Of a stretch of 64,000 nucleotides of DNA, positions 13,512-47,848 are shown one piece after another. The number at the start of each line of letters is the position of its first letter. Positions within the stretch are counted from its first letter, which is position 1. The DNA comes from Amanita rubescens. Taxonomy: Eukaryota > Basidiomycota > Agaricomycetes > Agaricales > Amanitaceae. The notes under the pieces were generated by a model. That model did no database searches and was not told where the DNA came from. It saw nothing but the letters and a program-made list of their open reading frames with translations. The translations under genes and the position numbers were made by a program. The DNA lies in contig WION01000101.1 in the NCBI GenBank assembly GCA_015039365.1, positions 1 through 64,000 of the forward strand. Reading direction: 5' to 3'.

Positions 13512-13639
13512 TTGTCATGTTATCCGAGTCCTGATTGTTGTAAGAATAGCGGATGCGATGCTTGTACATTTAGTTTAGAATTTTTTTCGTACAAAAATTT
13601 CAATATCAGAGTATCGGGATCAAAGCGAGCGAAAGGATA

Positions 13640-23372: not shown

Positions 23373-23530
23373 GTGTGGGTGTGGGTACTATGGAAGTGGG
23401 TGTGGGTATGGGTCAGCTTGCCATGTACCCTGATCCAAACCCATACCCAGAGTGAGGGTATGGGTATGTCACAGGGTGTGGGTGTGGGTATGCATCTGGA
23501 TACCCAGGGGTTCACCCAAGCCAATCCCTA
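23373..23530. mobile_element. Fragment of the hAT-type element at 30621
   Basis: About 158 bp of GTGTGGGTGTGGGTA-rich sequence ending CCAATCCCTA are nearly identical to the right end of the element at 30621-31659 (31504-31659). The left part and left terminus are missing. It is a truncated second copy. Confidence 0.75.
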
Positions 23531-23540
23531 CCCATTCCTG

Positions 23541-24367
23541 CTAGACCACATAGCAAGAAATATTTCTGAGTACATTATCAATGTCGGCATCATCCGCATC
23601 AACAACTTTCCCGTTGTCTAGTTTCATGTAGAGCACGTCACCTACTTCTGCCACTGTAATTCCCTCCGATGTAACTCCTGCGCCCTCGGATGCAGACTCT
23701 CTCATGCTGAAAAAAAAAAACGGCATAATTCGCACTTTCGATCGTGACGCGGACCCAATTATGAGAAGAATCACTCGTGTGCGTGCTTGAGATAGGAGGG
23801 CCAACTTTTTCTAGCAGTTGATGGAACGAACGCTGCGTTTCCGCTCAATCCCTTCTTATTCGCCGGAATCCCAGCCTACCCCGATCAAGTATAAATAACA
23901 GGAGCGACGCCCTAATTTCCCTATGCCCTTCCACGCATCTCGCTGGACACTGTATGATGATGTTGCTCGCAGGTGTGACGACATTATAGCTCGATATGAG
24001 CAAATTGCACTGGAAACGGTTCGTCACCGTTGCTCATTTCTTCTATAACCTTTTCTCAAACTGCTGGCGGAATAGCGCCCAATCGAATGGGGATATTTCT
24101 CTATAACGGATTGAAGTCTGCGCGCACGGTCCCCATTACAACCAACGTTCGAGTGGTCGAAACATGAATAGCTACCTTCATCAAGCGAAATTGGTGCAAA
24201 GGAACATTGTCGACGTCGATGGCAAGTTAACTGCCCCGTGGCATGAATATGACAAATTGCGCACGGGCTCGGTGGTCCTCATGAGAATATCCTTGCGTAC
24301 ATACACGCCGACTGACAAAAAAAGTTTCATTCCATCTTGGTTAACAGAACGACGACCGAAGTACTGA
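23541..24367. pseudogene. Fragments of a transposon-associated protein
   Basis: The plus frame at 24164-24367 (LHQAKLVQRNIVDVDGKLTA, PWHEYDKLRTGSVVLMRISL) resembles the minus frame at 40107-40367 (VNAKLMQREVVDCDDKLVPP, CDKLRPGTLVLMKVQL). This sequence pattern recurs in proteins of repetitive basidiomycete genes whose role is unknown to me. A minus frame at 23541-23804 (VGDVLYMKLDNGKVVDADD) lies next to it. The copy has no intact start-to-stop model. Bases 24368-24600 contain scraps that may continue it (RIKVLLPSYDPIDERPF). Confidence 0.4.
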
Positions 24368-24857
24368 CCACTTATAGTTATACAGAATCAAGGTCTTGTT
24401 GCCATCATACGATCCGATCGATGAACGCCCATTCGTGGTGTCATCGAGAACATTGCGCGCAGCGAAGAAGACAAAAAGGGCGACAGCGACAACGAGTTTG
24501 TTAAATCGTTCGCACGGACCAGAAACAAGTTGGTGACTCTCAAGCGTCCAACGTAACGTGTTTCTTTCGTCTGATAAAAACTGTGGTCTTATACCATTGG
24601 TCAGACCCCTGCTGCTTCCTCAAGCAGCGCTCCACCCCCTCCCACCGTAAAACAGGCGAAAACGTCTAGCAGGAAAAGTGCCGACAAACAACTGATGGAA
24701 GAAATGAATTTGGAACGGCGTCGCTCTCCATTTGTTCTATTACTGCTAAAAGAATGCATTATCTGTAAAAATAATGGTGTCGCTCACGTTCATTGAAGAA
24801 AAAAAGCGTTCGTGTTGAGGGTTTGCCGCGCAGGCGGGCGTAAAGCTTAATTTGTTT
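24368..24857. other. Left flank of hairpin block A
   Basis: No gene is recognised. The dense hairpin pattern of the next 5.4 kb is absent here, which puts the left boundary of block A near 24858. Confidence 0.4.
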
Positions 24858-25009
24858 GAGTATGTGTCGTCGCATATCATCCTCGAGGAGGAGGAACTGT
24901 AGATGACTTGCGAGTTATCTAACTAAATAAGTCCGGTGTCGGCTCAATTGCTAGAGTCGATAGCCGGAGGTCATGTGACACGCCCAAGGCGCGTCAAGCC
25001 TTGTTTATC

Positions 25010-25312
25010 TCAAGAGATAACAATACAAAGAGAGCGTGCAGGTTTAGAGGTGGGCCGTGACCCCATCTTAAGCTCAAGTGAGCGCTTCACGATAACGCCC
25101 AAAGTGAACAGGAAGCTAACGGCATCGCAGGGGTACTGTTGAGGACCTCCCTCGTCCGGAGGTTTCAAGACTAGCTGGCCGGGTCTCATGCTCGACTCGC
25201 TGAAGGAATCGGCCTGCGAAAGGATGGCAGGCAAGAGAGCAAACGGTGTGAGGGCCGTTGAGGGGATAGGTGAGTGCGGACGTGCACTCGTTTCTATCTT
25301 ACTGACAGCCAA
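25010..25312 (-). pseudogene. C-terminal segment shared with block C
   Basis: A 100-codon frame (SKIETSARPHSPIPSTALTP, LLPAILSQADSFSESSMRPG, LVLKPPDEGGP). It matches residues of the 288-codon frame at 38586-39452 (SKIEMSARPHPPIPLTALTP, LLPAVLSQADSFSESSMRLG) at high identity. Protein-level conservation between blocks with mostly silent or conservative changes supports real coding in the past. Confidence 0.5.
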
Positions 25313-25453
25313 AGACGTAAGCTGTCGTTTGGTGGACGCAATGGTTTGCTCTCCTTCGGGAACTTGAAGAGCTGGTGTTGCCGGCTCTTCCGAGACATCC
25401 GCAGTCTCTAGATGTTCGAATGAACATCTAACAGTCTTGATGGACCCAGCGGG

Positions 25454-26548
25454 CTATGCGTAACGACATTCCCAAGACCCATCTTTATGCATATCACGTG
25501 TGGGTCTAGCAAGCATCGAAACGGACTCCGAACATCCTGAATAGGGCAAATCGGCCTCGCACTGATGGGGCATAGCTCCGACCGTCTCATTAGGCTGTAA
25601 CCATACAGCCTCGGGTTTCGAATTAGAGAACTTAACGTTCTCTACTGTAGACCTAGGTGAGCGCGTGCTTAAGTTCGCCTTCCCTCCCCCACTAACGACG
25701 CCGTGAGGACATCGTTCAGGGTCTCCGTCTTCAGAAGACTCCAACAGCGTCTCATCAGATGCAAGACCTGGCTGACGAGGAGAAGGAGCGTGCGGAGAAC
25801 GGGCAGACGAGAGCATTGGTAACAGAGGGGTCACCGGGAAAGCAGGTGAGTGTGTGCGCACACTCATAGTGTCATCACTGACAAAATTCGGCTCTCGAAG
25901 CGGGGCTACCGCGTTCTTGGATTGCCGAAGCGCGCCAGCATCGTTGTCGGCCGTCGAGGTTTCTTGCAGGACAGCGAAACATACGACACCGTCCTGAATG
26001 GCCTTCCAACCACATATGAGAGTCTCGCGAGAGTCTCTCAAGGTTTCTACCAGCGTTGGTATAGCTGGCCCTTTCGAAACTGACTCTTCAGTTTCTAGAT
26101 GCTCATTTGAGCGTCTATAAGCCTCGACGGCTTGTTCAAGTCGTCGTGGCTTTGTTTCGTGACCATCCGCGATGGGAGCTACAGGAGTTGAGGCCAACGA
26201 TCCAGGAGCGGCTTCCAATGACGAGCAAGAGAGCTCTAAGCTCTCAGTACGACGAATAGGCGAGGTACGTGCTACGTCCGCCTTCATTTCTTTACTCACA
26301 ACATCTACTTTTAGACATCGCGAGGCAATTCCTGTCGATGCGAATTCTGATTGTTTATCCGGTGGCACCTTGGGACTATGACGAGGAAACTCGTCAAATG
26401 CGGCAGAGCGACGTTTAAGACGCTCTTGGATATACACAGCGGCTCTTGCGAGCTGCCCTTCCCCTTCAGCAGAAAAGGGAGTGATGTATTGGTTAGACCG
26501 CTTCCGAGCGGTCTCGAAACTTGGTGAGCGCAGGTTATGTACTCCCAA
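25454..26548 (-). CDS. Ser/Pro-rich repeat protein, C-terminal part
   Basis: This frame continues the preceding ORF after a frameshift. It starts VNKALGVHNLRSPSFETARK-like and includes AEGEGQLARAAVYIQERLKR, paralogous to AEGSYIASAAAYVQERINRR in block B (33213-33731), so this segment is conserved between copies. Later parts are Ser/Pro-rich (SSLEAAPGSLASTPVAPI, SARSPHAPSPRQPG) and end at TAG near 25454. A further frame at 25010-25312 (SFSESSMRPGQLVLKPPD) matches block C at 38586-39452 and probably belonged to the same ancestral protein. Confidence 0.45.
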   Translation of the reverse strand: MGVHNLRSPSFETARKRSNQYITPFSAEGEGQLARAAVYIQERLKRRSAAFDEFPRHSPKVPPDKQSEFASTGIASRCLKVDVVSKEMKADVARTSPIRRTESLELSCSSLEAAPGSLASTPVAPIADGHETKPRRLEQAVEAYRRSNEHLETEESVSKGPAIPTLVETLRDSRETLICGWKAIQDGVVCFAVLQETSTADNDAGALRQSKNAVAPLREPNFVSDDTMSVRTHSPAFPVTPLLPMLSSARSPHAPSPRQPGLASDETLLESSEDGDPERCPHGVVSGGGKANLSTRSPRSTVENVKFSNSKPEAVWLQPNETVGAMPHQCEADLPYSGCSESVSMLARPTRDMHKDGSWECRYA

Positions 26549-28299
26549 AGCCTTGTTGACAACATTACATCGTGTCGTCCAGATATCATCTTAATAGGCG
26601 GTATTGAGTCATCCGAAGGTTGATGAAGGGGTACTGCACACGTAGGAAGGACGGACGGAGCGGAAGCTTGCAACGTGGAGGTTGTCGAGGGCTTAGGTGA
26701 GTATACATCTTCCTTTTCTCCGTTATGTATACTGACGATGGTGTCAGTGACCCGTCGTCTCTCCCCCACCTCAGCCGAGAGAGAAGTTAGGGCTTGCTCA
26801 ACAGCAGGCCCTATATTCACATTAGAATGCTCACCGGAGCGTTCTATATCGCCCGCGGAAGGTGTTTTTCCAAATCGCGGAGTAGCGGCTTCAAATGAGA
26901 CTCTCGAACGAGTCTCGACCTTCAGATGGGCGTTTAAGCTCACTGTGGCTTTGGGACTTACGACACTAGGAATATGTCGTACCGAGATCGCCAGGTGCGG
27001 CGATTTATCAAGCAGCGGCAAAGCGAGAGAATGGGAGACTTGAGACGAAGCCCGAGCTTCGGGGTTTAAGTGAGTCGCTGTTTTCGCTACTTGACACGTA
27101 CTAACGACGTTTGACGCGCGGGACTTCAGATTCGCTCGGGAAGATGGCGAGATACCATCTTTGGACGAGTCGGCAAGAGGAGCTCGTCTTGGGCTCGAGG
27201 AATTTGCAGGAAAGGCCCGTATAGAGGAGACAGGTGCGGATTCCAGCAACATTGGGGCTGCCTTGGATGCAGGTGAGGAAAGCTCTCCATTTTTGCACTG
27301 CGTGTTGACAATGGTCTCTAGAGCCCGCTGTTCTTCCTTCGTCCTGTCAGAAGCGGACTTATCCAGAACTTCGTTATAGAGAAGTCCTTTGGAAAGGTCA
27401 GAACACTCGTAGGAGCGCTCGCGGATACCAGTAGACGGCGGTTCACCAGATCGCAAGATAGCGGTCTCAAGTGAGACTCTAACAAGAGTCTCTGCCTCTC
27501 GGTAAGCATTGACGCTTGCCAGTTGTCCGTTATTGATAGTGTGGACCGTATCTGGTATAGCAGCTGCGGGAGACGATGGTATGACTTCATCCAAGGAAGG
27601 ACAGGTGTGAAGAGTTGAAATCGAGGAGACGAGTGCGGGACTGGGCAGCCGAAAGGTTGTGTTGTCAACAGGTGCGTGTGTTTCTTTATTCATTCCTTTT
27701 CTCTTGCTGACGACGGTTGTAGGAACCCGTCGTTTCTCCTCCACTTCAGATGAAGAAGAAATTAGGGTCCGCTTGATAGCAGGCCCTACAACGACATTAG
27801 AACGCTTTTTAGAGCGTTCTAGAACATCCGCAGGAGGTGGTTCAACCCGTGGGGTATAGGTTTTCGATGAGACTTTTTTACAAGTCTCTTTATTTAGGTG
27901 ATTTCCATTTCTCACCGCGTTTTCTGAGCCTGTGACACTATGTTTACGTCCTCCAAATACCGCGCGAAGCGGTGTTTCACTAAACCGTGGTGAAGAAAAC
28001 GAGAGGGGAACCCGAGGACAAGTCTTAGGCGTACAGTGAGTAATGATACTCGCTTCTCGACGCGTACTGACAACGTTCGACGCGAGCTGTGTAGCGACCT
28101 CTCGGGAGCACAGGGAAGACAGAGAAGACGGCGCGGAGCCGTCTTTAGAAAGGCTGATGCAAGAGGCCGGAGCCAGGGAGACAGGCGGCAAGGGATTACG
28201 CAGTGAGAGAACTGCGTTGTTGAGTGGTGAGTGGGTCTTTCCGTTCTTTCCCATTATTCTGTTGACGACGGCATAAGGAACCGGCCGTCTCTCCTCCAC
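26311..28299 (-). CDS. Ser/Pro-rich repeat protein, middle part (662 codons)
   Basis: This is an open frame of diverged repeats with a super-period of about 190 residues. Recurring motifs are ERSKKRSN / ERSGEHSN, SEVEEKRRV / AEVGERRRV, VVSTRREA / VVSTCQVA / TIVSIHNG, SAPVSSI, SRVSFEAATPRFGKTPSAG, and DDSIPPIKMISGRHD. Composition is Ser, Pro, Arg and Val rich and low in aromatics, which suggests a disordered or fibrous protein. The end of this frame (after SGRHDV) runs out of register with the homologous frame in block B (SGRHGSGVVNVN). A frameshift near 26570 passes the pattern to the next ORF. The DNA hairpins fall at fixed places in these repeats, for example on ERSxxRS and RVSxE codons. 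Confidence 0.5.
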   Translation of the reverse strand: MEERRPVPYAVVNRIMGKNGKTHSPLNNAVLSLRNPLPPVSLAPASCISLSKDGSAPSSLSSLCSREVATQLASNVVSTRREASIITHCTPKTCPRVPLSFSSPRFSETPLRAVFGGRKHSVTGSENAVRNGNHLNKETCKKVSSKTYTPRVEPPPADVLERSKKRSNVVVGPAIKRTLISSSSEVEEKRRVPTTVVSKRKGMNKETHAPVDNTTFRLPSPALVSSISTLHTCPSLDEVIPSSPAAAIPDTVHTINNGQLASVNAYREAETLVRVSLETAILRSGEPPSTGIRERSYECSDLSKGLLYNEVLDKSASDRTKEEQRALETIVNTQCKNGELSSPASKAAPMLLESAPVSSIRAFPANSSSPRRAPLADSSKDGISPSSRANLKSRASNVVSTCQVAKTATHLNPEARASSQVSHSLALPLLDKSPHLAISVRHIPSVVSPKATVSLNAHLKVETRSRVSFEAATPRFGKTPSAGDIERSGEHSNVNIGPAVEQALTSLSAEVGERRRVTDTIVSIHNGEKEDVYSPKPSTTSTLQASAPSVLPTCAVPLHQPSDDSIPPIKMISGRHDVMLSTRLWEYITCAHQVSRPLGSGLTNTSLPFLLKGKGSSQEPLCISKSVLNVALPHLTSFLVIVPRCHRINNQNSHRQELPRDV

Positions 28300-29858
28300 C
28301 TCAGAAGAAGAAAGAATTGAAGCTTGTCCGTCAGGCCCGTGTCAGCATTAGAACGCTCGTCTAAGCGTTCTACAATACCCGCGGACAATGGTTTACCAAC
28401 CCGCGGGACTGCAGTTTTCAACAAGACTCCAACATGAGTCTTAATGTTTCGGTGGGTCTTGTTCACTGTCGGTTTTGAATCAGCAACGCTAACTTTACGT
28501 TGCGCTGAAACTGCTATAAGCAGCGGTTCACCAAACTGTGGCGACGAAGACTCAAGGGAGACTCTCGAAGGAGTCTCTATTTTATCATGGCGAGTCGTTT
28601 CGCTCACTACCCGACGCGCGTTGACTATGTTTGAAGGACTCGTTTTCAAAGTAATCTGAGAAGACGGTTTACTTCCGTTTTTGGAAGATCGAGTCAGAGG
28701 GGGCCGTATAGAGAGGACGGCCGTGGAGTTACGCGGCGTGAGGGCTGCGTTTGGCCAAGGTGAGTGCCTGCTCGCACTCGTCCGTTTCTGTGTGCTGACT
28801 TTGACCTTTCTAACAGATCTATTCTCGGGTGTATGAACTTTCACGCGTTTAGGAGTAGGAGCCGATACAATTCGGCTGGAGGGTGTAATACCCATTAGAG
28901 AGTTTCCCTTGGGAGACTCTCTACTTAGAACGACTGTATTCAACCGTTCTAACGGCTTCACGCGCACGCCAGGGCGAGGCTGGAGCCGTGAGATGGGTAA
29001 TCCCGTCTCTGAGGTTGACTTGGGGGTCTCGGACCTCGTGGTCATGTGTTTGGGAGCCCGAGGAGACTGGTGAAGGGTTCCCTGAGGTGCGGAAGGACTG
29101 TCCGGCTTCGTGGAGCTCGGATTTACTATAGGACGAGTCGTTTGAACTCGTTCGGGTGAATTCGAAGCCTCATGAATCGAGACTTCCTGAGTCGCAGAGG
29201 TTGCTTGCGAGTAGATTCCCTTGAAGAAAACGGGCCGTGGCCGACTGGAGCCGTTGGGCGTGTGGGTAGGACTCGGCATTGTCCTTCCTTCGAGCCCGGA
29301 TGAGCGCGGGCTTGACGCTGCGCGGATCGCAGAGCCGACTGACGTAGTGGCTGAATACGGCTTCGCAAGGTTTTCCGTCTCGCGTATGAGAGCTTCCAAC
29401 AGCTCCCGGCAATGTTTGGACCACAAGTCCAACTTCTCATCCGACTTCTTCTGCTCCTCAACCCGGATCTTGTCCCTCTCAACCCAGGCCTTATCGGATT
29501 TCTCTCGACGGAATCTAGCGTGCTTCCGTTCGCTCAACTTGTTTTCGTGGCAGGCTACAAGCTCGCCGATAGCCCGTAGCTTTAGGCGCCATTCGTTGGA
29601 GTTAGGTTCAAGCTGAACCTTCTCCTGGATGTATTCATGAGCTTCCCGTACCACGGAAAGCCCGTCTTTTAATACTTCCCTCTCACGGGAGTATTCCGAT
29701 AGAGCCTTCGGATAGAAGAGCTCTACGAACTTAGAGAAGCTCGAGAGAGCTTCTCGGGAGACTGGACCTCTTCGGGAACCAATCTCGGGGGGGTCCTTAG
29801 CATTGTAAGAGTTTTGGGAAACTCGGTCGTGTGACGAGCCTCGAGTTGCGAGACTCAT
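28254..29858 (-). CDS. Coiled-coil-headed Ser/Pro-rich repeat protein, N-terminal part
   Basis: From ATG 29858 the first 170 residues are charged and helical-looking (SREALSSFSKFVELFYP, REVLKDGLSVVREAHEYIQE, ENKLSERKHARFRREKSDKA, DEKLDLWSKHCRELLEALI). After that the sequence is Ser/Pro/Thr/Arg-rich and falls into diverged repeats (SRVSLESSSPQFG, ERLDERSN). The frame stops at 28254, but a one-base shift near 28336 carries the repeat pattern into the next ORF (SSSEVEERR). I recognise no family. The upstream 450 bp carry hairpins rather than an obvious promoter. Either a decayed gene or frameshifted expression could explain the break. Confidence 0.5.
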   Translation of the reverse strand: MSLATRGSSHDRVSQNSYNAKDPPEIGSRRGPVSREALSSFSKFVELFYPKALSEYSREREVLKDGLSVVREAHEYIQEKVQLEPNSNEWRLKLRAIGELVACHENKLSERKHARFRREKSDKAWVERDKIRVEEQKKSDEKLDLWSKHCRELLEALIRETENLAKPYSATTSVGSAIRAASSPRSSGLEGRTMPSPTHTPNGSSRPRPVFFKGIYSQATSATQEVSIHEASNSPERVQTTRPIVNPSSTKPDSPSAPQGTLHQSPRAPKHMTTRSETPKSTSETGLPISRLQPRPGVRVKPLERLNTVVLSRESPKGNSLMGITPSSRIVSAPTPKRVKVHTPENRSVRKVKVSTQKRTSASRHSPWPNAALTPRNSTAVLSIRPPLTRSSKNGSKPSSQITLKTSPSNIVNARRVVSETTRHDKIETPSRVSLESSSPQFGEPLLIAVSAQRKVSVADSKPTVNKTHRNIKTHVGVLLKTAVPRVGKPLSAGIVERLDERSNADTGLTDKLQFFLLLRWRRDGRFLMPSSTE

Positions 29859-30324
29859 TTTCGGGCATTGCTAAAGCCCAAGAATGGGTTATGGTGTTTA
29901 TTTTCGTGTTTTCGGTGTAGTATAGGTTGGCAATAGACAATTATATGTTATCTAAGATGTCTAATATACTCACTTTCGAGTGTATATATGATACACTCCA
30001 ACTTCGGAAGTGTAAAAAAGTGTAACGGGTGAAAACCTGTTATAAGGTGTTATGAAGCTGAGGACAACCTATTAGGTTGTCTTGAGGTGATATATGCACG
30101 GTCTGATGCCGTGTTGAGGTCTCGCCACTCGAAGTACACTGAATCCAAGTATATATTGGTCGTGTATCGAGTAGATACTAGAGAGTAAGTTGTTTGTACA
30201 TGTGTAGTGACACGCTCCATAGGTTTGCACGTCACATCAAACACCTATCTATATATGGTAGCTACTTGTATTTACACGATGGAGAGAGATCGAACCCAGT
30301 AACGGGCTACCCGTTACAACTGGG

Positions 30325-30360
30325 GCACTCCAGGGGCACTCCCCCAATGTACCCTGGTGG
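30325..30360 (-). repeat. Inverted single copy of the 41-bp repeat
   Basis: The reverse complement (CCACCAGGGTACATTGGGGG, then AGTGCCCC) matches the 41-bp unit at 20978-21160. It lies immediately outside block A's last hairpin (30299-30317). Confidence 0.7.
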
Positions 30361-30365
30361 ATGCT

Positions 30366-31790
30366 TTTTTCCTACCTTCTACCAGATCATTGTTCCCAAA
30401 GTTGTATCAAAAAACACAAAGGCAGTGACAATTGACAAGGTTGCTGCACTACAATAACTTGGGCTGGAAATGAGGGAAGTGAGCCCAGGTATGTTTTGCG
30501 ATACTACTACAAGTACTACTATTCAGTTTGAGGTACATTTTATGGTGTCTTCCCACTACTAGTAATGCAAGCAAGAAGTTTCTCTTTTTTAGACAGTTTT
30601 ATGCCAAACTTTGCTAAAAGTAGGGATTGGCGTGGGTTGGCCAAACCCTTGAGGGTCTTGGGTGTGGGTGTATAGTGGGTATGGGTGGGGGTACAGACTC
30701 CATGGACCCTCATTCAAACCCATACCCTCAACGTGGGTTTGGGTATCATCAGGCATACCCACTCCTGTACCCACTCCTATGTATGTCAGGATAAGGTGGG
30801 ATGTGGGTAGCTCTGTTGGGACAGAGGCCAGGCCCAGGTCACAAATGCAGCCTGTGTGGGTGTCTGATAGTTGCAGGGGGGCAGGGGGAGCCTTGGAAGC
30901 AGAACCTGTGAAGGGCCACTGGGCCACATGCATCAGTGGCTCACTCCATGGGTCATGATGATGGCAGAGGGTGGCGATTACAGAGGCTGGACCTGGGTGT
31001 GGCCTGTACACCTGAGGTCTTAGGGTGGCGGCCTGAGTAGTGGGCTGCTGGGTGGGGTTTCACTGTTTGGATTGCTCCAGAACAGGTGTGGCTAGAGAGT
31101 TGAATTGGGGGTGGCAGTGGGGACCTCAGGTGGAGGGTGGGGGGTCAGGAGTGTGTTCTCCTTCTGGTGGTCCATGGGTGCAATGCTGGTGGGCCTGTGG
31201 GGTCACTTCTCTGTCAGCCAGCAAAGGAAAGGGAATGGAGGGGAAGGAGTGGCACTCCTGGTCCTGTTTGCTTCAAATTGTCTCACATGGCTTAAAGGAG
31301 GTGGCAGTGATGGGCACCATTGGAGGCTGGACTGGGCCTACTAGAGTAGGGGGATGTTGATGGGATATGATTTTGAATGGAAAGGCCAAAAGGGAAGGTG
31401 GGACTCACCTTAGTTTCAATTACTAGTTTTTTCTTTTCTTTTTCATTTTAATTAACTTGTATTACACATATCATTACCTTCATCAAGGGGTATAACCCAT
31501 AAGGGTGTGGGTGTGGGTATGGAAGTGGGTGTGGGTATGGGTCAGCTTGCCATGTACCCTGATCCAAACCCATACCCAGAGTGAGGGTATGGGTATGTCA
31601 CAGGGTGTGGGTGTGGGTATGCATCTGGATACCCAGGGGTTCACCCCAGCCAATCCCTAGCTAAAAGACAAATGGTAAAGTTTTATGCATTTGTTGTGAC
31701 ATTGATGATTAAAAAATAAATTATACAGGAAATAGCATTGACTGCCTCAAATTCTACATGTTTGATTCTAGTTCAGTTCGAGTTCGAACT
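30366..31790 (+). pseudogene. Partial copy of the gene at 62137, split by a hAT element
   Basis: Bases 30366-30620 and 31668-31790 match 63585-63905. Shared parts include VVPKVVSKNTKAVTIDKVAA versus VVPKVSSKNPKAATIEKAA, the intron-like stretch with CTACTAGTAATGCAAGCAAG, and the exon start with acceptor ACAGGAAATAGCATTGACTG. A CAA-to-TAA change (ACTACAATAACTT) stops it. The element 30621-31659 interrupts it. This is a dead copy of a repetitive gene. Confidence 0.75.
30621..31659. mobile_element. Non-autonomous hAT-type element, 1,039 bp, 8-bp TSD
   Basis: Termini are TAGGGATTGG and CCAATCCCTA, a 10-bp perfect inverted repeat. They are flanked on both sides by GCTAAAAG (30613-30620 and 31660-31667), an 8-bp target-site duplication typical of the hAT superfamily. 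The uninterrupted target is visible at 63802-63830 (GCTAAAAGACAAATGG), so the empty site is known. Interior ORFs (for example 31105-31344, Gly/Trp-rich) have no transposase motifs, and GTGTGGGTATGGG subterminal repeats are abundant. It depends on a transposase elsewhere. Confidence 0.9.
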
Positions 31791-32180
31791 GACAGAACCG
31801 AAGAATCTAGCAGTGACCCTAAGTAAACTGAACATATTATACACACGAGTTTTGCCTAGCTAAAAAAATATTTTTCTCTCCTGAGAGCTTTGGGGCACTT
31901 GAGGGATGTTTATGATTGCGAAAGCGAATATTTCTAATGTGGTTTCGGTGTACTTTGAGCCTACAGAACGTTTGATGGGCGCGAGCGTCGAAATTTGGCG
32001 TGCCTTCCATGTTTGGAAGTTTGTGACGGGTTGTGTGTGACACAGAGCTCAATTTTGGTGACGTATTGTTGATTCGGTTCCCCCCGATGTAAATGTGAGT
32101 GAGGTTCACTCACGACATTTATCTTATTGACGGCAAGGTGATCCCGTCGTCTCAGACTAATTACAATATTGTGCGGCTTG

Positions 32181-33146
32181 CTACGAGCGCGCCAGCCAAG
32201 ATTGATGCCCAACAATTGAAGGAACTTCCGCCCACCTCAGGGTCTTGGGCGGATGAATGGGTAGCTCGTTTGCTACCTTCTGAAAATGTGAGTGTTTATA
32301 AACACTCAAATTCACGTTTATATTGACGATGTAAGTGTTACTTCGTCCGGTTGTTACCACCGAGTCTGGTGGCTTACGCCGAGTTTGCCATGAAAGCTCC
32401 TTGCTCTCGCAACGACTAGAGACGTTGACCAGACAGCCAACGAGTTTGGGAATAGGTGGAGTGGGTTCCACCTCTAGGTTCGGTGAGTACGCAAAGGCAC
32501 TCAGGTTGAATGGCTGATTGACGACATCACAGGGATATCGTCGGGAAGGAAAGGGCCAGTCGAGTTTGTCACTCGACTGTGCTAGGGATTGAACCGATTG
32601 ATGCGTGAAGCCGTTCAGCTGTGTGGTTGGAGGAGATAGCGTGGGATAGGTGGACGCCAATGAGAAGAACGACGTTGGGACCGCGTTTGGTACAGGTGAG
32701 TATGAGCTCTCACTTATTCCAACTGCTTCACTGACAACGTATAGGACTTGTCGTCGGGTTGGGTCAAGACAGTAGGTTCGACTGCACGGGAGATTGGTCC
32801 AGCTGGAGCATAAGGTTTTCCAGCTGAGGGATTGGATGGACCTGCTCTGTATCGGCAGGCATGGACGGCTGGAGTGGTGAAACGACCACGATGAGTGCGA
32901 GTTTGCATTCGTTTCCTCGTTAATAACAACGAGGTCTGGCAGTCGTCCTTCAGCCTCGCTAGGCCGCTTTTGTGCTTGAGGGATATCCTCTTCACGTTCT
33001 TCAGCGTTATTGGCCTCAAGACGCGTTTCCTTACAACCTTCCGAGACTTCGACATGGGAGATTCCCAGCAAGGGCTCAGGATGGTGCGGGACCGGTTTTG
33101 AACAAGGAATGGAGAGTTCCTTGACTCTCGGGGTAATGAGCTGCAA
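32181..33146 (-). CDS. Repeat-protein ORF of block B (321 codons)
   Basis: An open minus-strand frame (LEANNAEEREEDIPQAQKRP, LPDLVVINEETNANSHSS, VLYVVSEAVGISESSYSPVP, CDVVNQPFNLSAFAYSPN). The recurring VV(S/N)-x-E/S-x-SP pattern every 60-70 residues matches the sub-module of block A. No domain is recognised. Five GTGAGT-type hairpins on the opposite strand fall inside it at about 190-bp spacing. Confidence 0.4.
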   Translation of the reverse strand: MQLITPRVKELSIPCSKPVPHHPEPLLGISHVEVSEGCKETRLEANNAEEREEDIPQAQKRPSEAEGRLPDLVVINEETNANSHSSWSFHHSSRPCLPIQSRSIQSLSWKTLCSSWTNLPCSRTYCLDPTRRQVLYVVSEAVGISESSYSPVPNAVPTSFFSLASTYPTLSPPTTQLNGFTHQSVQSLAQSSDKLDWPFPSRRYPCDVVNQPFNLSAFAYSPNLEVEPTPPIPKLVGCLVNVSSRCESKELSWQTRRKPPDSVVTTGRSNTYIVNINVNLSVYKHSHFQKVANELPIHPPKTLRWAEVPSIVGHQSWLARS

Positions 33147-33212
33147 AGGAGCAGCTTTGGGTTGTGCTGGAAGGAATTCCGAATCTTCAGACTGGCGAGC
33201 ATAAGTTCATGC

Positions 33213-33731
33213 TCATGTCTGATTCTTTCCTAACGACGAACTCAATCGTTGGGATACGGGCTCAATCGTCTTATCCAATGGATCTTCTGTAACACGACGA
33301 ACGACTTCCTCGCGTGAGGACGAGCGTCTGTTTATGCGTTCTTGAACATACGCAGCAGCGCTGGCTATGTAACTTCCTTCTGCGACTACAGAAGGATGAT
33401 TGTCGGGCTTGGACTGTCTTCGAACAGTCTGAGAGTTCCGTGAGTGTACTTCACTCACAATCGATCCATCATTGACATTGACAACACCTGAACCGTGTCG
33501 CCCGGATACCACCTCAACAGGTGGGTAATTCTCGTCTAATGAATGACGAGGGGACTCTACTTGCAGAAGATGGATGGGAGAGGTAGTAGGAGCAGGGACA
33601 GGCGCTGCAGACGCTACCGAGGCATCGGGTGAAGAAGTCTCCTCACTTATGTGCTGTATACTAACGACGGTGGAGTCGTAGACCTGCCGTTTCTCCCCCA
33701 TTCCGATTGGAAGCGAAATTTTTGGACCCAT
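33213..33731 (-). CDS. Repeat-protein ORF of block B with conserved YVQER segment
   Basis: This frame runs GMGEKRQVYDSTVVSIQHIS, SLDENYPPVEVVSGRHGSGV, VNVNDGSIVSEVHSRNSQTV, AEGSYIASAAAYVQERINRR. It aligns without a break to the region where block A shifts frame at about 26570, so block B preserves the ancestral register. The last residues (EDPLDKTIEPVSQRL) parallel SPKVPPDKQSEF in A. No function is assigned. Confidence 0.45.
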   Translation of the reverse strand: MGPKISLPIGMGEKRQVYDSTVVSIQHISEETSSPDASVASAAPVPAPTTSPIHLLQVESPRHSLDENYPPVEVVSGRHGSGVVNVNDGSIVSEVHSRNSQTVRRQSKPDNHPSVVAEGSYIASAAAYVQERINRRSSSREEVVRRVTEDPLDKTIEPVSQRLSSSLGKNQT

Positions 33732-34272
33732 ATGTCAACAGATCCAGGAATTGACGTGGAGCGTTCGGCTACGCTCTCTTTTGACGTTTTGGGAGGTAAG
33801 GGTACACTCCCTTCGATTTCTACAGTTCATTTTAACTGTTGAGGTTCTCTTGCAGTGTATGCGAGCCAAGATTTACCAGTCCGTGTATTTACGGGTGGTC
33901 TCGGAGGTTTGGAACGAGTTTCGTTCCTTCGGTGAGTAATTCTACTCACTGCCAGTTTCGTACTGTTGACGCGAGATTCACGTCATTTAGAAACACAAGC
34001 AGAAGAACGAATCAGCTCATCTTTGAGCTGCGACGAAGGAGTGGCCAATATTGAAGGAACGGGCGAAGGTCTTGGTACCAAGGGGACTTCCTTGGTAAAA
34101 GGTACACGTTCCAGAGGACTTTTTAGTTTCTCTGTACCAACCACTGCGTCTTAGATTCGGACGCCTTTATGGGCATTCTGCCGGGTAGGACCTTCCGGAT
34201 TCGACGTCGTGAACAGCGTCGACTCGTACGCTCCTGAACGGATGTCACGGCTTTGGCCGGTGGCCTTCCTTC

Positions 34273-34653
34273 CTACGCTTCGGAAGGGGTTGTCAGGTGT
34301 TCGGACTGCTTTCGAGCGGCCCTACAATAAGGTGAGTAAACTTTACTCGACCTCAATTGCTTGTTGACGACATTTAGGCTATGTCGTCGTGGTACCACCT
34401 GAACAGATGGTTCAAGCTTTTCTGTAGGCTCACAAGAGGGCTCTGCTTGAACAGAAAGGACGGGCGTGGCGATGGAATCGGAAGTTGACAGCATAGGGAG
34501 TGCCACGTCATCAGGTGAGATTTCCTCACTCTTTTTTTGTATACCGATGACGTTATAACCAAGTCGTCTCGGTACCACCTCAATTGGTGGTAGAAGCTCA
34601 TCTGATGAACGACGAGAGGAGGCACCACGAACGGGAGGGGCAGGTGAGGACAC
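34273..34653 (-). CDS. Repeat-protein ORF of block B, tandem modules
   Basis: Two modules are seen in one frame: SSDELLPPIEVVPRRLGYNV-IG...SEEISPDD and EPSVQVVPRRHSLNVVN. The consensus is D/E-x-x-PPIEVV-xx-R-x-x-x-NVVN. A third module (SDECIPLIEVVS) lies in a shifted frame at about 34680-34740. This is direct evidence of tandem amplification of a roughly 60-residue unit. Confidence 0.4.
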   Translation of the reverse strand: MSSPAPPVRGASSRRSSDELLPPIEVVPRRLGYNVIGIQKKSEEISPDDVALPMLSTSDSIATPVLSVQAEPSCEPTEKLEPSVQVVPRRHSLNVVNKQLRSSKVYSPYCRAARKQSEHLTTPSEA

Positions 34654-36229
34654 TTCCTCATCTTTGTTATTATTATGATGTTCAGGTTACATCGCACTGT
34701 TGATACCACCTCAATAAGTGGTATACACTCGTCCGAATGCACGCAAACAGATGTGGCTGTGAGTGGAGGGATTGGAGAGGCCGCATGATCGTTTGGTGAG
34801 GAAGCTTCCTCACTTTCTTTATGTATATTGATAAAGGCGTAGGACTACAGCCGTTTCTCCCCCAATTCACTCGGAAAAGGAGCAGTATGGATGGGCGCGC
34901 TCGCAAATTCAAGAGTATCAGACGAGTGCGCAGGAGTTTGCTTGTTGGGGAATTCGGGAAGCAAAGGTAAGATTTTCCTTGCTTCTACAGCACGTTTGAG
35001 CTGTACTGATTCTCGCGCAGCAGGTGTGGGTAGTGGTTCACCAAACTGCGGGTTTTTGGCCTGGTTATGTACTCAAGGACAAATCTCGTCCATTAGGTGA
35101 GTAACTTCGCTCACTGCAGGCTTTGAGCTGACGACACGAGGTTCACGTCCTTTAGGTAGCCAGGAGGGCGCAAGAATCAGCTCATCATCGAGTCAAACAG
35201 GAGCATTAGCCCGTATAGAGGAGACGGGCAAAGGATTAGACAGCGAGAGGGCTGTCTCGGCTGCAGGTGCGTAATCGGCTCCGTTCACTCGTTCCTTCGT
35301 GTTTACTGTCTTATTTTCGATTCGAGACTTGGATTTGGAGGCTAGGAGCGCGAGGCGTGGCAGCGGCAACGACAACTTAGGACTTATACGAGTTTCCGGC
35401 AGCTCTCGTGCCTTTGTCCGGAAGTTTCTGGACAACAATAAGAAACTGGTAAATCTATTTTGTCCATTTAGTATTGACCAAAAGATTTTGCTCCGCGAAA
35501 TTGGACAAAAGTCCCTTATCCATAATGATCATTGGTGATCATTAGTGATCATCATAGATCTTGAAACGATCATCATGAATGATCGCTATAGGTAGTAATC
35601 ACTAATGAATCACGAGTGATCATTAATGAATTACGATTATCCCGAGTGAACAGTCGTGATTTGTACTTGTTGGATCGTGAATAGAAGTTTTCAACTATTC
35701 CAATTCCCTCCTGAGAACTCGTTAAGCAAGATGAACCATGGTGAACAACTGTTGAACTGTGCAAAGTGTGTTCATGATCAATTGTGGTCCATTCCAAACC
35801 ATCGGGATCACTCATGATTTGCCATTCACCCACACCATCTCATGATGAATTTCATGAAAACTGAGAATGTAGAAATAATTAGGATCGTGATTAGAGGGTA
35901 TTTAACGGCCAACTTCACCTAAGGCAGCGCGTCGAATTTCGACGTTCCTTCCTAGTATGGAAGGTCGTCACATCGTGTGACTGGCCGAATTTAGAGCGTG
36001 CAATCCCGGCGCGCTCTATTGAGAAGGAGGTCCCCGCAGGAACAGGTCTGCGCAACGATCGTCCAAGATTGGTTGGAGTACGTGTCGTCGCATATCTCCG
36101 AGGTGATCCAGCGGGAGGGATTGTAGATGACTTGCGAGCCATCTAAATAAGAAAGTCCGGTGTCGACTCACTAGGCGCGTCAAGCCTTGTTTATCGCTAG
36201 AGAGCCCCTAGCGATAAGGACAGCAAGAG

Positions 36230-38560
36230 GGTTCTTACAAGCGAGAGCTCCGCGTAATAGTAACGGCTACAGGGGCCGTTTGATCCCTTCTTGCCCGCGA
36301 CGCGATCCGAGGAGAAAAGGAGAAGGGAGAATAGCCGCATGAGGCCGGCTTGGTTGTATGGTGTGTCCCTTTTTCTTCCGTCTTTCTTTCTGCTTACTGA
36401 CCATCCGGATGACGCATAAGTACTGCGGTGAAATCCGTGCCAGCCAAACCGAGGACGGCGCAACACGAGGACTCAAGACCGGTCCTCCGTGACGACATCT
36501 GAGGCCTGGACTCATGTCGGCTTCGAGGCCAGGACTTAGGGTCAGCCTCTTCTCGCTCAATAGGACGACTACGGCAAGGTTAGGACTCAGAAGAGAGTCC
36601 TACGACGCTTACACATCACCACATACGAGAGACGAGCTACGGGTCGACTTTGGGTCGGCTTGCCTCTCATTTCCACAAGGCGGCAGTAATGGGACGGGGA
36701 GCTGCGTGGCAGTTCGGGACTTGGTGCGTCTCGATTCCTCGGTCCAATAGTGTATTGATCAGCAACGTCAAACAGGTACACGCTCAACGATGAAAGACCG
36801 GCATCGGAATAACAGGCTGCAGCCTGCGGGATGAACTACGGCTATAGAAGACTCCCATAGCCTTCTACAAGGTAGAGAGTTCATTGAACTCTCTATGAGA
36901 TCGACACCGGCGTCGGATAAATTCGACGACTAGCCGGTATCTCCCCTTCTTAATGGAGAAAGGAAAATTTGGTTAGACGGGCTCGAACGAGCCTCGTCTA
37001 CATTCCGAGGCCGTAGTGTTAACGAAGGTCTCGGTCTTATGAGGTGAGTCCTGTAATGTTCTCTTAACCTAGCGGTGATTGCCGTATTACGTCAGCGGCC
37101 ATTTCCGGAATCCGCGGCACAGCCTTCCTCCTGCCTGTCCTCGCTGCTCGTCCTGCCCGCCAGACAACGGCTTAGTATTTTCATTCAATGGTATTACGTT
37201 GAGAGTTCAGGTTGCTGTGCAGATTTCCACAACATCACAATTGATAATGGTTGACAAAATGGGTGGGGTGGTGCTGACAAAGTGTGATGTCACATAGTGT
37301 GAAACTGAATTATATAATCAAAATGTGTCGGATCTGTCACGTTGTAAATTTTAAAAAAATTGGCCTCGGATCTGCCACTTGGTGGCCCACACCTTCAAGT
37401 TAAGCCATGATTGACGACTGATATCGGGTAAGACATCATTTATGTTAATGAGCCTAGCCTAACCCGTTGATGAGGAAAGTGCAAGGCATGATCTTCCGTC
37501 TTAACTGTCAAGCAGCCGACTTCAAGCCTATGGGGGACTCCGAAGAATCCTGAAGATCTCGTCACGCGCGCGCTAGTAGTAATGGACCAACCAGCATGCG
37601 AGGAGGGCCATGACAAGGTCTGTAGAGAACTTGGTAAGCTCTCTATATTATTCTGTGCGTCCTCAATGTACTGAGGCTGCAAAAGGTTCGCCACCGCTGA
37701 CGTTAAGCTTCTACATGCCAGCATCAGCACGTCATCAAGCGCAAGATGAAGTCGTTTGTGCCGGTACGGAAGCAAAAATGACATTCGTAATTGCAACGCC
37801 TGTTGGAAAGAATCGCGACAGGATAGGACTTGGGTAAGTCCTCTATCTTGTTTTTTAAGAGAATCTATCAAGATTCTCTATAAGGCTTGAATTACAACGA
37901 CTCGCTGCGAGTCTCTTCCCCTTCAAGAAGGGGAAAGGTATTAAAGACGGGCAAGTCCCTCAGTTATACGTCTTAGTGTTCACTAACGGCATATATAGAC
38001 GTGTAACATCAATCGGTCCAGCCTGGACTTGTATCGTCTAGCGGCCAAGGTCGCAGGGAATGATCGCTCAAATGATTCGTTTGAATCATAAGAATGAAAA
38101 TCATTTTCAATGGGAGGTGTCGACTTGTAAGTCCAATTCCTCCAGAGTCCCGATGTGCTAATTGAGCCGCATCATACAGGCGTGTTCCTTTCGACTGGAT
38201 CAGCCGTCCTTAGGTCTAAGGAGGACTCGAAAGGGTCCTGAAGTATTGTGGACTAGGCTACTAGTCGTCCGCGGGTTAGACTCAGCGTTCACACTGGGTC
38301 TAGAGCGAACCCACTGGGTGAGTTCTCGTATTGCATTGTATTGGGGATCCTATTAAAGCTCTCCCCATGCTAGGACCCAGGAGAATCGACAACGACTCGT
38401 CCCGAGTCCTTTCCCCTTCAAGAAAGGAGGAATACAAGGCTATAGACGGGCTCAGCAAGTCCCGCCTAGCATAATAATGATTAAGTGAGTCATGTAATGA
38501 CTCAAATATAGTTTTTAAAGTCTAATTCATAGAATTTATGTATAATTTACATAGATACAA
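36230..38560. other. Non-coding hairpin-rich segment unique to block C
   Basis: About 2.3 kb without convincing ORFs. At least three diverged tandem modules start with a TCCCCTTC-AAG-type hairpin followed by AGACGGGC (36950-37000, 37917-37955, 38413-38455). Two start with GGACTC-GAA-type hairpins and CCTGAAG (37535, 38222). Sequence differs between modules while pairing is kept in most stems. Confidence 0.5.
37362..37393. repeat. GGCCTCGG-type interspersed repeat, copy 2
   Basis: Nearly identical to 19209-19240 (two mismatches in 32 bp), in the same orientation. Confidence 0.6.
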
Positions 38561-38585
38561 GTTAGCCGACTCGGAAATCGACTAG

Positions 38586-39452
38586 TTATGCTGTCCAAAG
38601 ACAGCTTCGAGCAAACGACGACGATAACGACGCGATACTCGGCATCTGCAACCTGCAGCCACGGAGACGAGAGGGATGGGAGATGACGGGAGCGTCACGG
38701 TTGAGCGCATCGATGGGCCTGCTAAGGTTCGTAGCTATTCCCTTTCGTTCGCTCGTCGTATTGACAATTTCGTATAGAAGCTGACTACAGACTATCCAAT
38801 TGGGCGGCTTACGAACTGGGCAAGCGAGTCCAATACTCGGGTGACCAAGACTCGATATCCGCAGCAGGCGTGCAGATAGGATAGGCAGTATGAGGGCCGT
38901 CTCAACAGACGGTAGGTGCTTTAAAGCACCTAAGCTGAATTTTGTATTAACGACGTTGTTAAGTCGTCGTTTGGCCTTAACCGCGATATTCGGCGGTTTA
39001 CCACGAGCCCGCCACCAGCGTTCGACGCTTTGAGGGCAGCAGGAATAAGCCTGGAAGAATGCAGGCTTAGAGACGGGTCGTGACCCTGTCTTAGGTTCAG
39101 GCGAGTGCACGATGGCACTCAAGGGGAACAGGAAGCTAACAGCACGGTAGGGATACCGTTGGGGGCCTTCATCGTCCGGAGGCTTCAAGACTAGCTGACC
39201 GAGTCTCATGCTCGACTCGCTGAAGGAATCGGCCTGCGAAAGGACGGCAGGCAAGAGAGCAAATGGCGTGAGGGCCGTTAAGGGGATAGGTGGGTGCGGG
39301 CGTGCACTCATTTCTATCTTACTGACAGCCAAAGATGTAGGCTGTCGTTTAGTGGGGTCTAGAGGCCGCTTGACCTCTATTAGAGCTAGTATAACCGGCT
39401 CTACCGAGACCTTTTCGGTCTCTAGATGTTCAGCTGTGCATCTATCCGCCAC
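38586..39452 (-). CDS. Block C ORF, paralogue of the block A C-terminal part
   Basis: A 288-codon open frame. Its N-terminal half (HLETEKVSVEPVILALIEVK, SKIEMSARPHPPIPLTALTP, SFSESSMRLGQLVLKPPDDE) is colinear with block A 25010-25410. Its C-terminal half (RLLRISSLGHPSIGLACPVR, LLYEIVNTTSERKGIATNLS) has no counterpart in A, where the left end follows directly. No recognised domain. It probably represents the more complete 3' end of the family's ORF. Confidence 0.4.
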   Translation of the reverse strand: MADRCTAEHLETEKVSVEPVILALIEVKRPLDPTKRQPTSLAVSKIEMSARPHPPIPLTALTPFALLPAVLSQADSFSESSMRLGQLVLKPPDDEGPQRYPYRAVSFLFPLSAIVHSPEPKTGSRPVSKPAFFQAYSCCPQSVERWWRARGKPPNIAVKAKRRLNNVVNTKFSLGALKHLPSVETALILPILSARLLRISSLGHPSIGLACPVRKPPNWIVCSQLLYEIVNTTSERKGIATNLSRPIDALNRDAPVISHPSRLRGCRLQMPSIASLSSSFARSCLWTA

Positions 39453-40106
39453 TACGGCTTCAACGGGCTGTACGGAGCAGTCTTCTCGGACCCTGAAGAC
39501 TCCTCCGTAGAAAGCTTGTCGGCTCTCTGTACCTCAGGTTGAGACAAGGCGGGTACTATAGCCTTGTTAGGCTGCAATAATACAGCCTCAGGCTGCGAAC
39601 GAGAGGGCAACGCGCTGCTCAAGTTTATGTGCCAATCATGTAATTCTCCTTGATTGTGTCATACTAATTAACAAACTGGTGTATGACCTGGCTATAGTAC
39701 GGGATTGTTAAAGATCATGATTTATGAACAACACATTAATTGCTTGTTACACTAAAAGTACAGTAACCATGATCACTCATGATCACTAGCAATCACTGGT
39801 GATTGATGATGTTTCAAAGCTTGGTAAATTTTAATCTATACTCTAATAACACCATGGACAACGATTGGTTCACAAAGGTTCATGAAGGTTCATGAAGGCC
39901 TCTTTGAAAAGAAAAGAAGTAATCATGATAAAGCACTAATGTACAACGATGTATCACTTCCATTCACGAGCTTTTATATTAACGACAATTTGTGATAATC
40001 TGTCGTGATCACGGGGAAATCACTAGTGATCATCATCATTTTCGTAGGTCTTAGACCATTTGTCCAATTTCGCGGCACATAAAAGATGGATGGTCCAAAC
40101 TACCTT

Positions 40107-47730: not shown

Positions 47731-47848
47731 TGGTTACAGCGGTAGTACTTGATCATATCCGCCTAGTCCAGTAGTCCTTCCCTGTCCATTACAAAAATGA
47801 CTAGCACTGACTCCTGATGCATGAGGGGTACGTAGAATGTAGTCTACA

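Follow-up and report, generated by a model that had tools for sequence, protein, structure and literature searches.

Between positions 24858 and 39620, the 64,000-nucleotide stretch of Amanita rubescens DNA analysed here (the window) carries three blocks packed with short perfect hairpins, which are decayed remnants of a non-autonomous LTR retrotransposon that was recently mobile. We read the hairpins as genome-scale ordered RNA structure (GORS), predicted to extend along the whole of the element RNA. The same property is found in a group of Copia elements of the same genome that encode their own replication proteins.

Hairpin density in the window

Hairpins with perfect arms of at least 6 bp and loops of 3-8 nt were scanned for exhaustively, with dinucleotide shuffles of each bin as the control. 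Positions 24001-40000 hold 116 such hairpins (7.3/kb) versus 71 (1.5/kb) over the remaining 48 kb of the window, where the per-bin shuffles of the window predict about 1.3/kb. Within 24858-39620, 110 perfect hairpins compare with 18.2 ± 3.0 in shuffled sequence, the highest of 20 shuffles reaching 24, and at arms of at least 8 bp the counts are 31 and 1.0. An earlier, sequence-only reading had described this region as dense in hairpins and its flanks as free of any similar density; both statements are borne out, since the density exceeds that of shuffled sequence and flanks alike and the rest of the window lies at background, which also rules out a region-wide effect. The hairpins it had placed at either end of the region are present (Table 1), and the arms differ in sequence from one hairpin to the next, as it had stated, which rules out a single amplified palindrome. 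Its conclusion that codon use could not suffice as a cause likewise stands: the long ORF of C786, a copy of the element outside the window, contains 32 hairpins versus 7.3 ± 2.7 after codon shuffling. Two of its details do not hold. Density is not equal in coding and non-coding sequence (6.6/kb and 9.6/kb, respectively, in the C786 copy), and the commonest loop is not 6 nt, loops of 4 nt (36) being slightly ahead of those of 6 nt (29) when loops of 3-12 nt are counted over 24.5-40 kb.

Stems are mostly 6-10 bp in length. The excess is 1.5-fold in the non-autonomous copies and 0.9-fold in Copia elements at a loop of 0, rises to 3-10-fold at loops of 3-9 and, in the non-autonomous set, declines past about 12-15. 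This dependence on loop length fits real hairpins, unlike dyad protein-binding sites, which are ruled out by the lack of a comparable excess at loop 0. Tetraloop motifs are rare on the sense strand (GNRA in 1 and UNCG in 3 of 86 loops), and Rfam RNAs are ruled out, there being no match up to E=1 within 20-44 kb.

Anatomy of the element family

The sequence-only reading knew of no fungal element with this architecture, a view that stands for the hairpin density, which is unusual, but not for the frame, which is that of an ordinary non-autonomous LTR retrotransposon. The search for further blocks that it had proposed was productive, yielding four independent insertions in the genome outside the window, 6.2-8.4 kb in length, with LTRs of 203-286 bp and TG...CA ends. 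Their terminal direct repeats are identical at 243/243 positions in C786, counted over what remains of its 3' LTR, at 202/203 in C62 and throughout in C664 (an 89-bp and a 115-bp piece with a 1-base overlap), and share 89% identity in C640. Three of the four (C62, the C664 group and C640/C167) have 5-bp target duplications (CCTTG, GACCA, CAGAC); none was seen at C786, the 3' LTR of which is truncated. The family LTR starts with TGTAACGGG and ends with CCGTTACA or CCGTGACA. A polypurine tract, GTGGGGGAGAG or AGGGGAGAG, immediately precedes the TGTAAC of the 3' LTR, and this tract-plus-LTR pattern, at up to 2 mismatches, occurs at 56 genome sites versus 4 for the reversed control; sites of the GGGGGAGGATGTAACGGG form number 22. 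CTTTTTTACACTT comes directly after the 5' LTR, where reading by eye showed no TGG... tRNA primer-binding site. Hairpin counts are 4.9-8.3 times those of shuffled sequence in all seven copies or fragments of the family. No relatives of the element were found among viral contigs, and a plasmid look-up returned none.

The C786 copy contains one long frame of 1636 stop-free codons to which Pfam assigns no function. Between C786 and C62, none of 480 single-change codons is a stop, versus 13.0 ± 3.5 expected, i.e. stops are avoided. The first 170 residues of the N-terminal ORF fragment of copy A in the window (Table 1) are modelled, at low confidence (pLDDT 68, pTM 0.33), as long helices, and a sequence search of the PDB up to E=1 gave no match. 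No ORF of the family matches a Pfam family at its cut-off, and at that cut-off no gag or pol domain is found, neither the gag-PR-IN-RT-RH polyprotein of autonomous Copia elements nor a recognisable Gag as in the TR-GAG type, a gag-only class of non-autonomous element. In a comparison by eye with 150 listed Copia RT matches (some 170 further RT candidates lie outside this set), none of the 56 sites with tract and LTR and none of 40 matches to the LTR fell where the 3' or 5' LTR of such an element would be expected; within this set, no Copia helper sharing the LTR was found.

The three blocks of the window are related, as the sequence-only reading had proposed: they are decayed copies of one family, with copy C drawn from a related subfamily (Table 1). 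Copy A aligns collinearly with C786 over 30318-28559, 28460-25884, 25771-25105 and 25035-24850, at 79-90% identity; it has lost about 2 kb internally, near 25035-25105, and its 5' LTR starts with TGTAACGGGTAGCCCGTTAC, a hairpin in its own right. Copy B, in which no LTR was found, matches C664 and C786 in blocks, at 72-83%, with protein matches of 51-86%. Copy C has protein matches of 29-39% (33243-33734, 34147-34593 and 34665-35141) together with short DNA blocks, and its positions 31869-32046 match C515:57771-57947, 235 bp from a GGGGGAGAGTGTAAGGAG site. The predicted folding-energy excess over dinucleotide-shuffled controls (MFED) is 14.4% for copy A, 15.9% for copy B and 19.9% for copy C. 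The spacer between blocks at 30319-31800, which has no element match apart from short repeats, has an MFED of 8.9% (se 5.0, four fragments).

Table 1. Features of the hairpin-dense region, in window coordinates
Feature	Position	Strand	Description
Example hairpin	25409..25430		9-bp perfect arms, 4-nt loop
Example hairpin	38486..38504		8-bp perfect arms, 3-nt loop
Copy A	24850..30318	-	5' LTR, leader, frameshifted long ORF; 3' end absent
5' LTR of copy A	30023..30318	-	86% identity to the 286-bp C786 LTR
Copy A ORF fragment, N-terminal (534 aa)	28254..29858	-	No Pfam family
Copy A ORF fragment, middle (662 aa)	26311..28299	-	No Pfam family
Copy A ORF fragment, later (364 aa)	25454..26548	-	No Pfam family
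Copy B	35926..39628	-	ORF 3' part (38589-39628) and 3' non-coding part
Copy C	31801..35300 (approximate limits)	-	Divergent fragment, related subfamily

Distribution among retrotransposons

The hairpin density is not unique to the element. Three Copia families with frames of ~2000 codons, encoding Gag, integrase and RT, show a similar excess in the same genome, which also has Copia frames of roughly 1390-1580 codons. Three of their ORFs contain 31, 39 and 31 hairpins versus 9.2, 10.6 and 7.7 after codon shuffling, the last two belonging to one family (99% protein identity), and the third family has 32 versus 6.8 at its locus and 21 versus 7.3 codon-shuffled in its ORF. In 5 comparisons between families, the placing of the hairpins showed no significant coincidence (p 0.09-0.59). 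The MFED is 17.5-21.4% in three non-autonomous copies and 20.5-27.6% in the Copia families, compared with -2.4 to 2.5% in four Gypsy loci and about 0 in host sequence. Host sequence, two other Copia remnants (both short and old) and all but one of the five Gypsy loci show no hairpin excess; the exception, L041, has 14 hairpins versus 5.4. Among 14 Copia elements from other hosts, most lack the hairpin property, although five have an MFED of 7.7-13.6%, and moderate structure is therefore not limited to this group. As a predictor of structure, an RG-rich Gag stretch has a counter-example in L055, which combines an RG-rich Gag that lacks a zinc knuckle with an MFED of 0.3%. The putative LTR start of Copia L039, read by eye, differs from that of the non-autonomous element.

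Evolution of the arms and strand of folding

Seven copies were compared at arms of at least 6 bp; they are related, so that the changes are not independent events. Divergence is 0.10 in arms, 0.22 in loops and 0.19 elsewhere, and 184 double changes in arms restore pairing versus 68 that do not. The restoring doubles comprise 169 transitions and 15 transversions (92% transitions, versus 69% in the background), where the observed rates predict a transition share of ~69% if each pair arose in one templated event and ~90% if it arose by two separate mutations. The closest copies, E62 and E664, differ by 7 restoring and 3 non-restoring doubles versus 67 one-sided changes, and E786 and W1 by 51 one-sided changes with no doubles. 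At third codon positions of Copia elements (ten copies), 12/81 are variable in arms versus 223/1017 (p=0.16), a trend at most.

By prediction both strands fold well, and the sense strand has the lower z in all six elements, with a mean difference of -0.30 (Wilcoxon p=1.6e-4 over 342 windows, the three non-autonomous copies being mutually related); in the Copia families alone the difference is not significant (p=0.12). Unpaired sense-strand positions of the non-autonomous copies have lost more G than C. There is no wobble preference among one-sided changes (219 G-T versus 227 A-C). This test is weak because a 23S rRNA control showed little power (37:35 at arms of at least 6, 17:6 at arms of at least 7), yet its result still does not favour RNA. 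Wobble signs inside versus just outside stems, themselves weak, are opposite in the two element groups.

Models for the origin of the hairpins

The sequence-only reading proposed a structured-RNA or snap-back-replicating selfish element. Its structured-RNA half is supported, the element being a retrotransposon whose coding strand is predicted to fold better than the complement. Snap-back replication is not supported: the element has LTRs, target duplications and a polypurine tract, and the transition share of its restoring doubles lies closer to that of two mutations. A related model, in which templated (snap-back) copying by the RT of the Copia group turns near-palindromes into perfect ones and the hairpins have no function, would explain their limitation to elements sharing one RT, the paired changes, found even between the closest copies, and the lack of wobble preference. 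The same transition share, the wholly one-sided differences between E786 and W1, and the better folding of the sense strand argue against it; templated snap-back mutation is disfavoured as the source of the hairpins, and we consider this model improbable. Selection on single-stranded cDNA or DNA cruciforms, rather than on RNA, is more improbable still: it agrees with the equal frequencies of G-T and A-C changes and with the good folding of both strands, but the strand asymmetry of folding and the greater loss of G at unpaired sense positions point to sense RNA, and the rRNA control shows how little the wobble test can weigh in its favour.

The explanation we favour, and consider somewhat probable, is that the sense RNA of an LTR retrotransposon without detectable gag/pol domains is folded throughout, that it is moved in trans by Copia proteins and that its hairpins aid packaging. 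The element would be mobilised by proteins of the ~2000-codon Copia group, and the hairpins would serve as dispersed, sequence-independent features helping to compact the RNA and package it into particles of that group. A common Copia machinery is proposed as the reason why the property is shared without evident shared internal sequence and is mostly absent from Gypsy elements. More tentatively, and with some doubt on our part, fold density rather than sequence may be the entry ticket, a single trans-acting machinery (Gag particle or RT) causing elements and their parasites to converge. The same RNA structure could instead have been selected as a shield against host RNAi or another RNA sensor, which we regard as rather unlikely. 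The genome does contain Argonaute/Piwi domains, with 36 exon-level matches spread over 8 contigs (equal-scoring contigs may be duplicates of one another), and stems of 6-10 bp, the prevailing length here, are too short for Dicer. Density rather than position is common to the families, as it is between the virus pairs described in the available part of the coronavirus study PMC7642675. Against such a shield, the four Gypsy loci and two short, old Copia remnants without excess are exposed to the same RNAi.

On the tentative reading of convergence through one machinery, genome-wide ordered RNA structure would characterise an entire group of LTR retrotransposons together with its parasites. GORS appears here in retrotransposons at a predicted strength comparable to or higher than that of RNA viruses. 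In the latter, where GORS has been studied, it is difficult to tell a role in packaging from one in shielding or stability. A single nucleus here offers structured Copia elements, mostly unstructured Gypsy elements and a structured element without detectable gag/pol, and because these contrasts coexist, the purpose of whole-genome RNA structure becomes directly testable. The case is also a warning that short hairpins with perfect arms, when met in a TE-rich genome, can be a trait of RNA folding and need not be DNA palindromes or precursors for RNAi.

Comparison with known systems

In its frame the element resembles LARDs such as Sukkula of barley, non-autonomous LTR elements with a large internal domain; such a domain is present here and no gag/pol coding was found in it. 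LARDs are, however, described as encoding no protein product, whilst the C786 copy has an open frame of more than 1600 codons; the LTRs here are also short (203-286 bp), and base pairs turn over between Copia families with density kept. The ~2000-codon Copia elements are alike in hairpin density and MFED but differ in encoding Gag, integrase and RT. In the openly accessible literature searched, neither GORS nor arrays of hairpins were found reported for LTR retrotransposons, including in the available parts of PMC7215508, PMC9784701, PMC7642675, PMC11381356, PMC9503155 and PMC10760457. The miRNA-like structure described in maize TEs is related but rests on another measure (PMC10760457, in the part available). 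Ty1 and Ty3 genomic RNAs are similar as LTR retrotransposon RNAs with stable local structure, low-SHAPE/low-entropy regions making up to 30% of them; these are discrete, SHAPE-measured regions, and the available parts of both reports give no folding-energy excess for the whole genome (PMC11381356, PMC9503155).

A further likeness is to GORS viruses, as portrayed in the accessible sections of PMC7642675: these too have many short-range stem-loops across coding and non-coding sequence, a high folding-energy excess over shuffled controls, and pairings that are poorly conserved between relatives although structure is kept. GORS has been linked to persistence and shielding in viruses (PMC7642675, PMC9784701, each as far as available). 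The folding excess that marks them is also predicted here, at 17.5-21.4% in the three copies and 14.4-19.9% in those of the window. The same sections of PMC7642675 give an MFED of 15% for SARS-CoV-2 and 7-11% for HCV and name 23.4% as the highest for a vertebrate RNA virus, a value that the upper part of the Copia range exceeds by a similar method with different shuffling and fragment steps. Like that of the three Copia families, the element RNA is predicted to fold about as strongly as the most structured RNA viruses, with the difference that its structure resides in LTR retrotransposons of a fungal genome.

Hairpin excess in the window

The sequence-only reading had described 24858-39620 as unusually dense in short perfect hairpins, and this observation is real and far beyond chance. 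A listing of hairpins with perfect arms of at least 6 and loops of 3-8 over the entire window placed 116 between 24 and 40 kb (eight 2-kb bins) and 71 in the remaining 24 bins, against a mean of ~2.6 per 2-kb bin in dinucleotide shuffles. Within 24858-39620, 110 hairpins compare with 18.2+-3.0 in shuffled sequence, where the highest of 20 shuffles reached 24. For arms of at least 8 the counts are 31 and 1.0. The flanks are at background (35 versus 29.3 shuffled for 1-22000; 32 versus 30.0 for 41000-64000), and the F-box region, said to contain nothing similar, indeed has a mean folding-energy excess over shuffled controls (MFED, computed at 350 nt) of -3.4% at 12001-16000. The loop length named as commonest, 6, proved slightly less frequent than 4.

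Anatomy of the element

A 1-kb piece of the hairpin region has 44 matches in the A. rubescens genome. Comparison of genome regions identified direct repeats flanking the matching stretch on contigs C786, C62, C664/C494/C443/C64 and C640/C167; as the flanks of C494, C443 and C64 are common with C664, and those of C167 with C640, each group represents one insertion. These repeats, together with termini of TGTAAC...GTTACA or GTGACA, 5-bp duplications at three of the four insertions (CCTTG, GACCA, CAGAC) and a polypurine tract preceding the 3' LTR, define an LTR retrotransposon. Without the nested insertion it measures 6.2 to 8.4 kb. Three of the insertions must have moved recently, as their LTRs are identical or nearly so. 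In the window, where three decayed remnants (copies A, B and C) are present, the element's coding strand is the minus strand.

Features of the window and LTRs of the genomic copies
Feature	Position	Description
F-box paralogous blocks	11855-15888	two blocks, 87% identity over ~1.7 kb
Repeat shared with C664	16915-17449	~81% identical to C664:4971-5472, within the ~2-kb insertion splitting the C664 5' LTR; probably a further mobile element
Tandem repeat	20978-21159	41 bp, 4.5 copies; resembles a long 52-bp-spaced array in C673, C21 (~77.6%)
MITE-like inverted repeats	22539-22745	35 bp, 137 nt apart; relatives at C167:33119-33349 and 34405-34639 lie at the ends of an insertion in a non-autonomous copy's 3' LTR
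GGGTATGGGT-type repeats	23373-23530, 31505-31659	~97% identical, both sides of copy A; also near 30644-30746
Copy A	30318-24850	sole LTR found in window; lacks ~2 kb and 3' end
Copy C	about 35300-31801	divergent fragment
Copy B	39628-35926	3' part of element
C786 LTRs		243/243 identical; 3' LTR cut short
C62 LTRs		202/203 identical
C664 LTRs		identical in two pieces, 89 and 115 bp; 5' LTR split by nested insertion
C640 LTRs		89% identity

The C786 copy contains 1636 stop-free codons, and a Pfam search of ORF pieces returned no family reaching its cut-off. A protein search found ten relatives, seven from A. rubescens (including the C786 product) and three from ENA or JGI. Within the ORF, other copies diverge from C786 by 13-25%, near-equally across the three codon positions, these being taken from C786 whilst the other copies have indels. 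Non-coding sequence is less divergent than the ORF in four of five comparisons (0.12-0.18 versus 0.21-0.25), the exception being copy W1 (0.139 versus 0.130). Stops number 0, 1, 0, 0 and 4 in these comparisons, against 13.0, 10.1, 11.2, 5.4 and 11.8 expected. The reading frame is held open, with its amino acids near-free to change. This non-autonomous element must borrow its reverse transcriptase (RT) and integrase.

Selection on the hairpins

Hairpins exceed shuffles 4.9- to 8.3-fold in all seven copies or fragments examined (the E515 count takes in neighbouring sequence). How large the excess is varies with the length of the loop. It is 1.7- to 3.5-fold at loops 1-2; in the non-autonomous set it is 19 versus 12.4 at loop 0, 86 versus 11.7 at loop 4, 96 versus 9.6 at loop 6 and mostly below 2.5-fold at loops 15-24. 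In Copia, loop 0 gives 5 versus 5.8 and the long loops are less clean (loop 16: 15 versus 3.5).

The hairpins are under selection. Over 42 ordered copy pairs, arms diverge by 10.2%, loops by 21.8% and other positions by 19.3%. Double changes in arms retain pairing in 184 cases and lose it in 68; because related copies each enter separately, these figures do not number independent events. Double transitions make up 169 of the 184; background changes are 69% transitions, which predicts ~69% for one templated event or ~90% for two separate mutations. In the closest pair, E62/E664, 7 double changes restore pairing and 3 do not, versus 67 one-sided changes, and E786/W1 shows no double changes versus 51. 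Among ten Copia copies, hairpin pairs have 2 distinct restoring double states versus 27 one-sided, and the lower variability of arms at third codon positions is a trend only (p=0.16).

RNA or DNA

G-T and A-C mismatches arise equally often through one-sided changes (219 versus 227), and single-mismatch stems show the same balance. This equality was first read as a DNA-level sign, a reading undercut by 23S rRNA from six bacteria: the same wobble test gave 37:35 at arms of at least 6 and 17:6 at arms of at least 7, so the test has little power. When 120-nt windows were folded with 40 shuffles each, sense-strand z was lower than antisense in 6/6 elements, by 0.30 on average (p=1.6e-4). The Copia families by themselves give p=0.12, and four controls were mixed in sign. 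Unpaired loops and flanks of the sense strand are G-poor in 7/7 non-autonomous copies, with C less reduced, and less clearly so in Copia. With moderate confidence, the selected level is sense RNA. What distinguishes this element and a group of LTR retrotransposons is probably whole-length ordered RNA structure and not chiefly palindromic DNA.

Hairpins in other retrotransposons of the genome

A Copia RT search listed 150 of 321 candidates, and all ten loci scanned are hairpin-rich (4.6-7.0 per kb). Identity to L029 is 93-98% for the four loci set against it, which count with it as one family, and L016 and L022 (99% protein identity) form another, so that three families are represented, at 51-56% identity. 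Hairpins exceed codon shuffles in a 2031-aa gag-pol ORF (31 versus 9.2+-3.2), in L016 (39 versus 10.6), in L022 (31 versus 7.7) and in the L045 ORF (21 versus 7.3); the whole L045 locus has 32 versus 6.8. Hairpin positions show no significant coincidence across the three families (p 0.09-0.59). The trait may not be common to all Copia of this genome, since an RT fragment of another lineage at window 47851-48426 (MFED 1.0% over 46500-49500) and one in L018 (1.3%) are unstructured. Families with 1390-1580-codon frames also occur, outside the hairpin and MFED comparisons. Gypsy hairpins are at background in four of five loci; the sole exception, L041 (C11:76500-81500), has 14 versus 5.4, yet an MFED of 2.5%.

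Possible roles: packaging or protection from RNAi

The non-autonomous element and the ~2000-codon Copia group have like hairpin density with no evident sequence similarity, and four of five Gypsy loci lack it; the simplest reading is common trans-acting machinery. Such machinery would prefer folded RNA, and the Copia-group Gag would compact and package hairpin-folded transcripts. The Copia ORFs L039 and L016 lack a CCHC knuckle and possess a long RG-rich stretch, and a CCHC match is present in 9 of 14 other-host loci; L055, from another host, is a counter-example, with an RG-rich stretch and neither knuckle nor structure. Hairpins could instead protect the element from RNAi, for which the host offers Argonaute-domain matches, 36 at exon level, spread over 8 contigs. 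This appears less likely, and packaging is modestly favoured because the trait tracks the element group, not the host. Argonaute/Piwi-domain clusters lie at C124:200831-242121 and C37:3133-18415; some matches are equal in score, and the clusters may duplicate one another.

Comparison of polypurine-tract-plus-LTR sites and LTR matches with the Copia RT matches listed found no helper element with the same LTR. A second repeat family, with 22 sites GGGGGAGGATGTAACGGG in the genome, closely resembles the element in its polypurine tract and in the start of its LTR, and is possibly a helper or a sister non-autonomous family.

Folding energy across elements and hosts

MFED is 14.4, 15.9 and 19.9% for the window copies and 8.9% (se 5.0, four fragments) for the spacer between them. 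Non-autonomous copies reach 19.7, 17.5 and 21.4% and the Copia families 27.6, 20.5 and 25.0%, compared with -2.4, 2.5, -0.1 and 1.8% for four Gypsy loci (L043 left out) and -0.0 and -0.3% for host sequence. Fourteen other-host Copia elements lie on contigs of bacterial assemblies that are presumably eukaryotic in origin, L060 and L063 sharing one contig. Their locus hairpin ratios are 0.4-2.6, and three ORFs (L056, L057, L060) exceed all 60 codon shuffles. MFED ranges from -2.0 to 13.6%, nine elements falling below 4% and five (L065, L060, L056, L063, L064) at 7.7-13.6%; ordered RNA structure may also exist in further Copia lineages. Values published with a similar method are about 15% for SARS-CoV-2 and 7.5-10.7% for HCV, with 23.4% given as the highest for vertebrate RNA viruses (PMC7642675).
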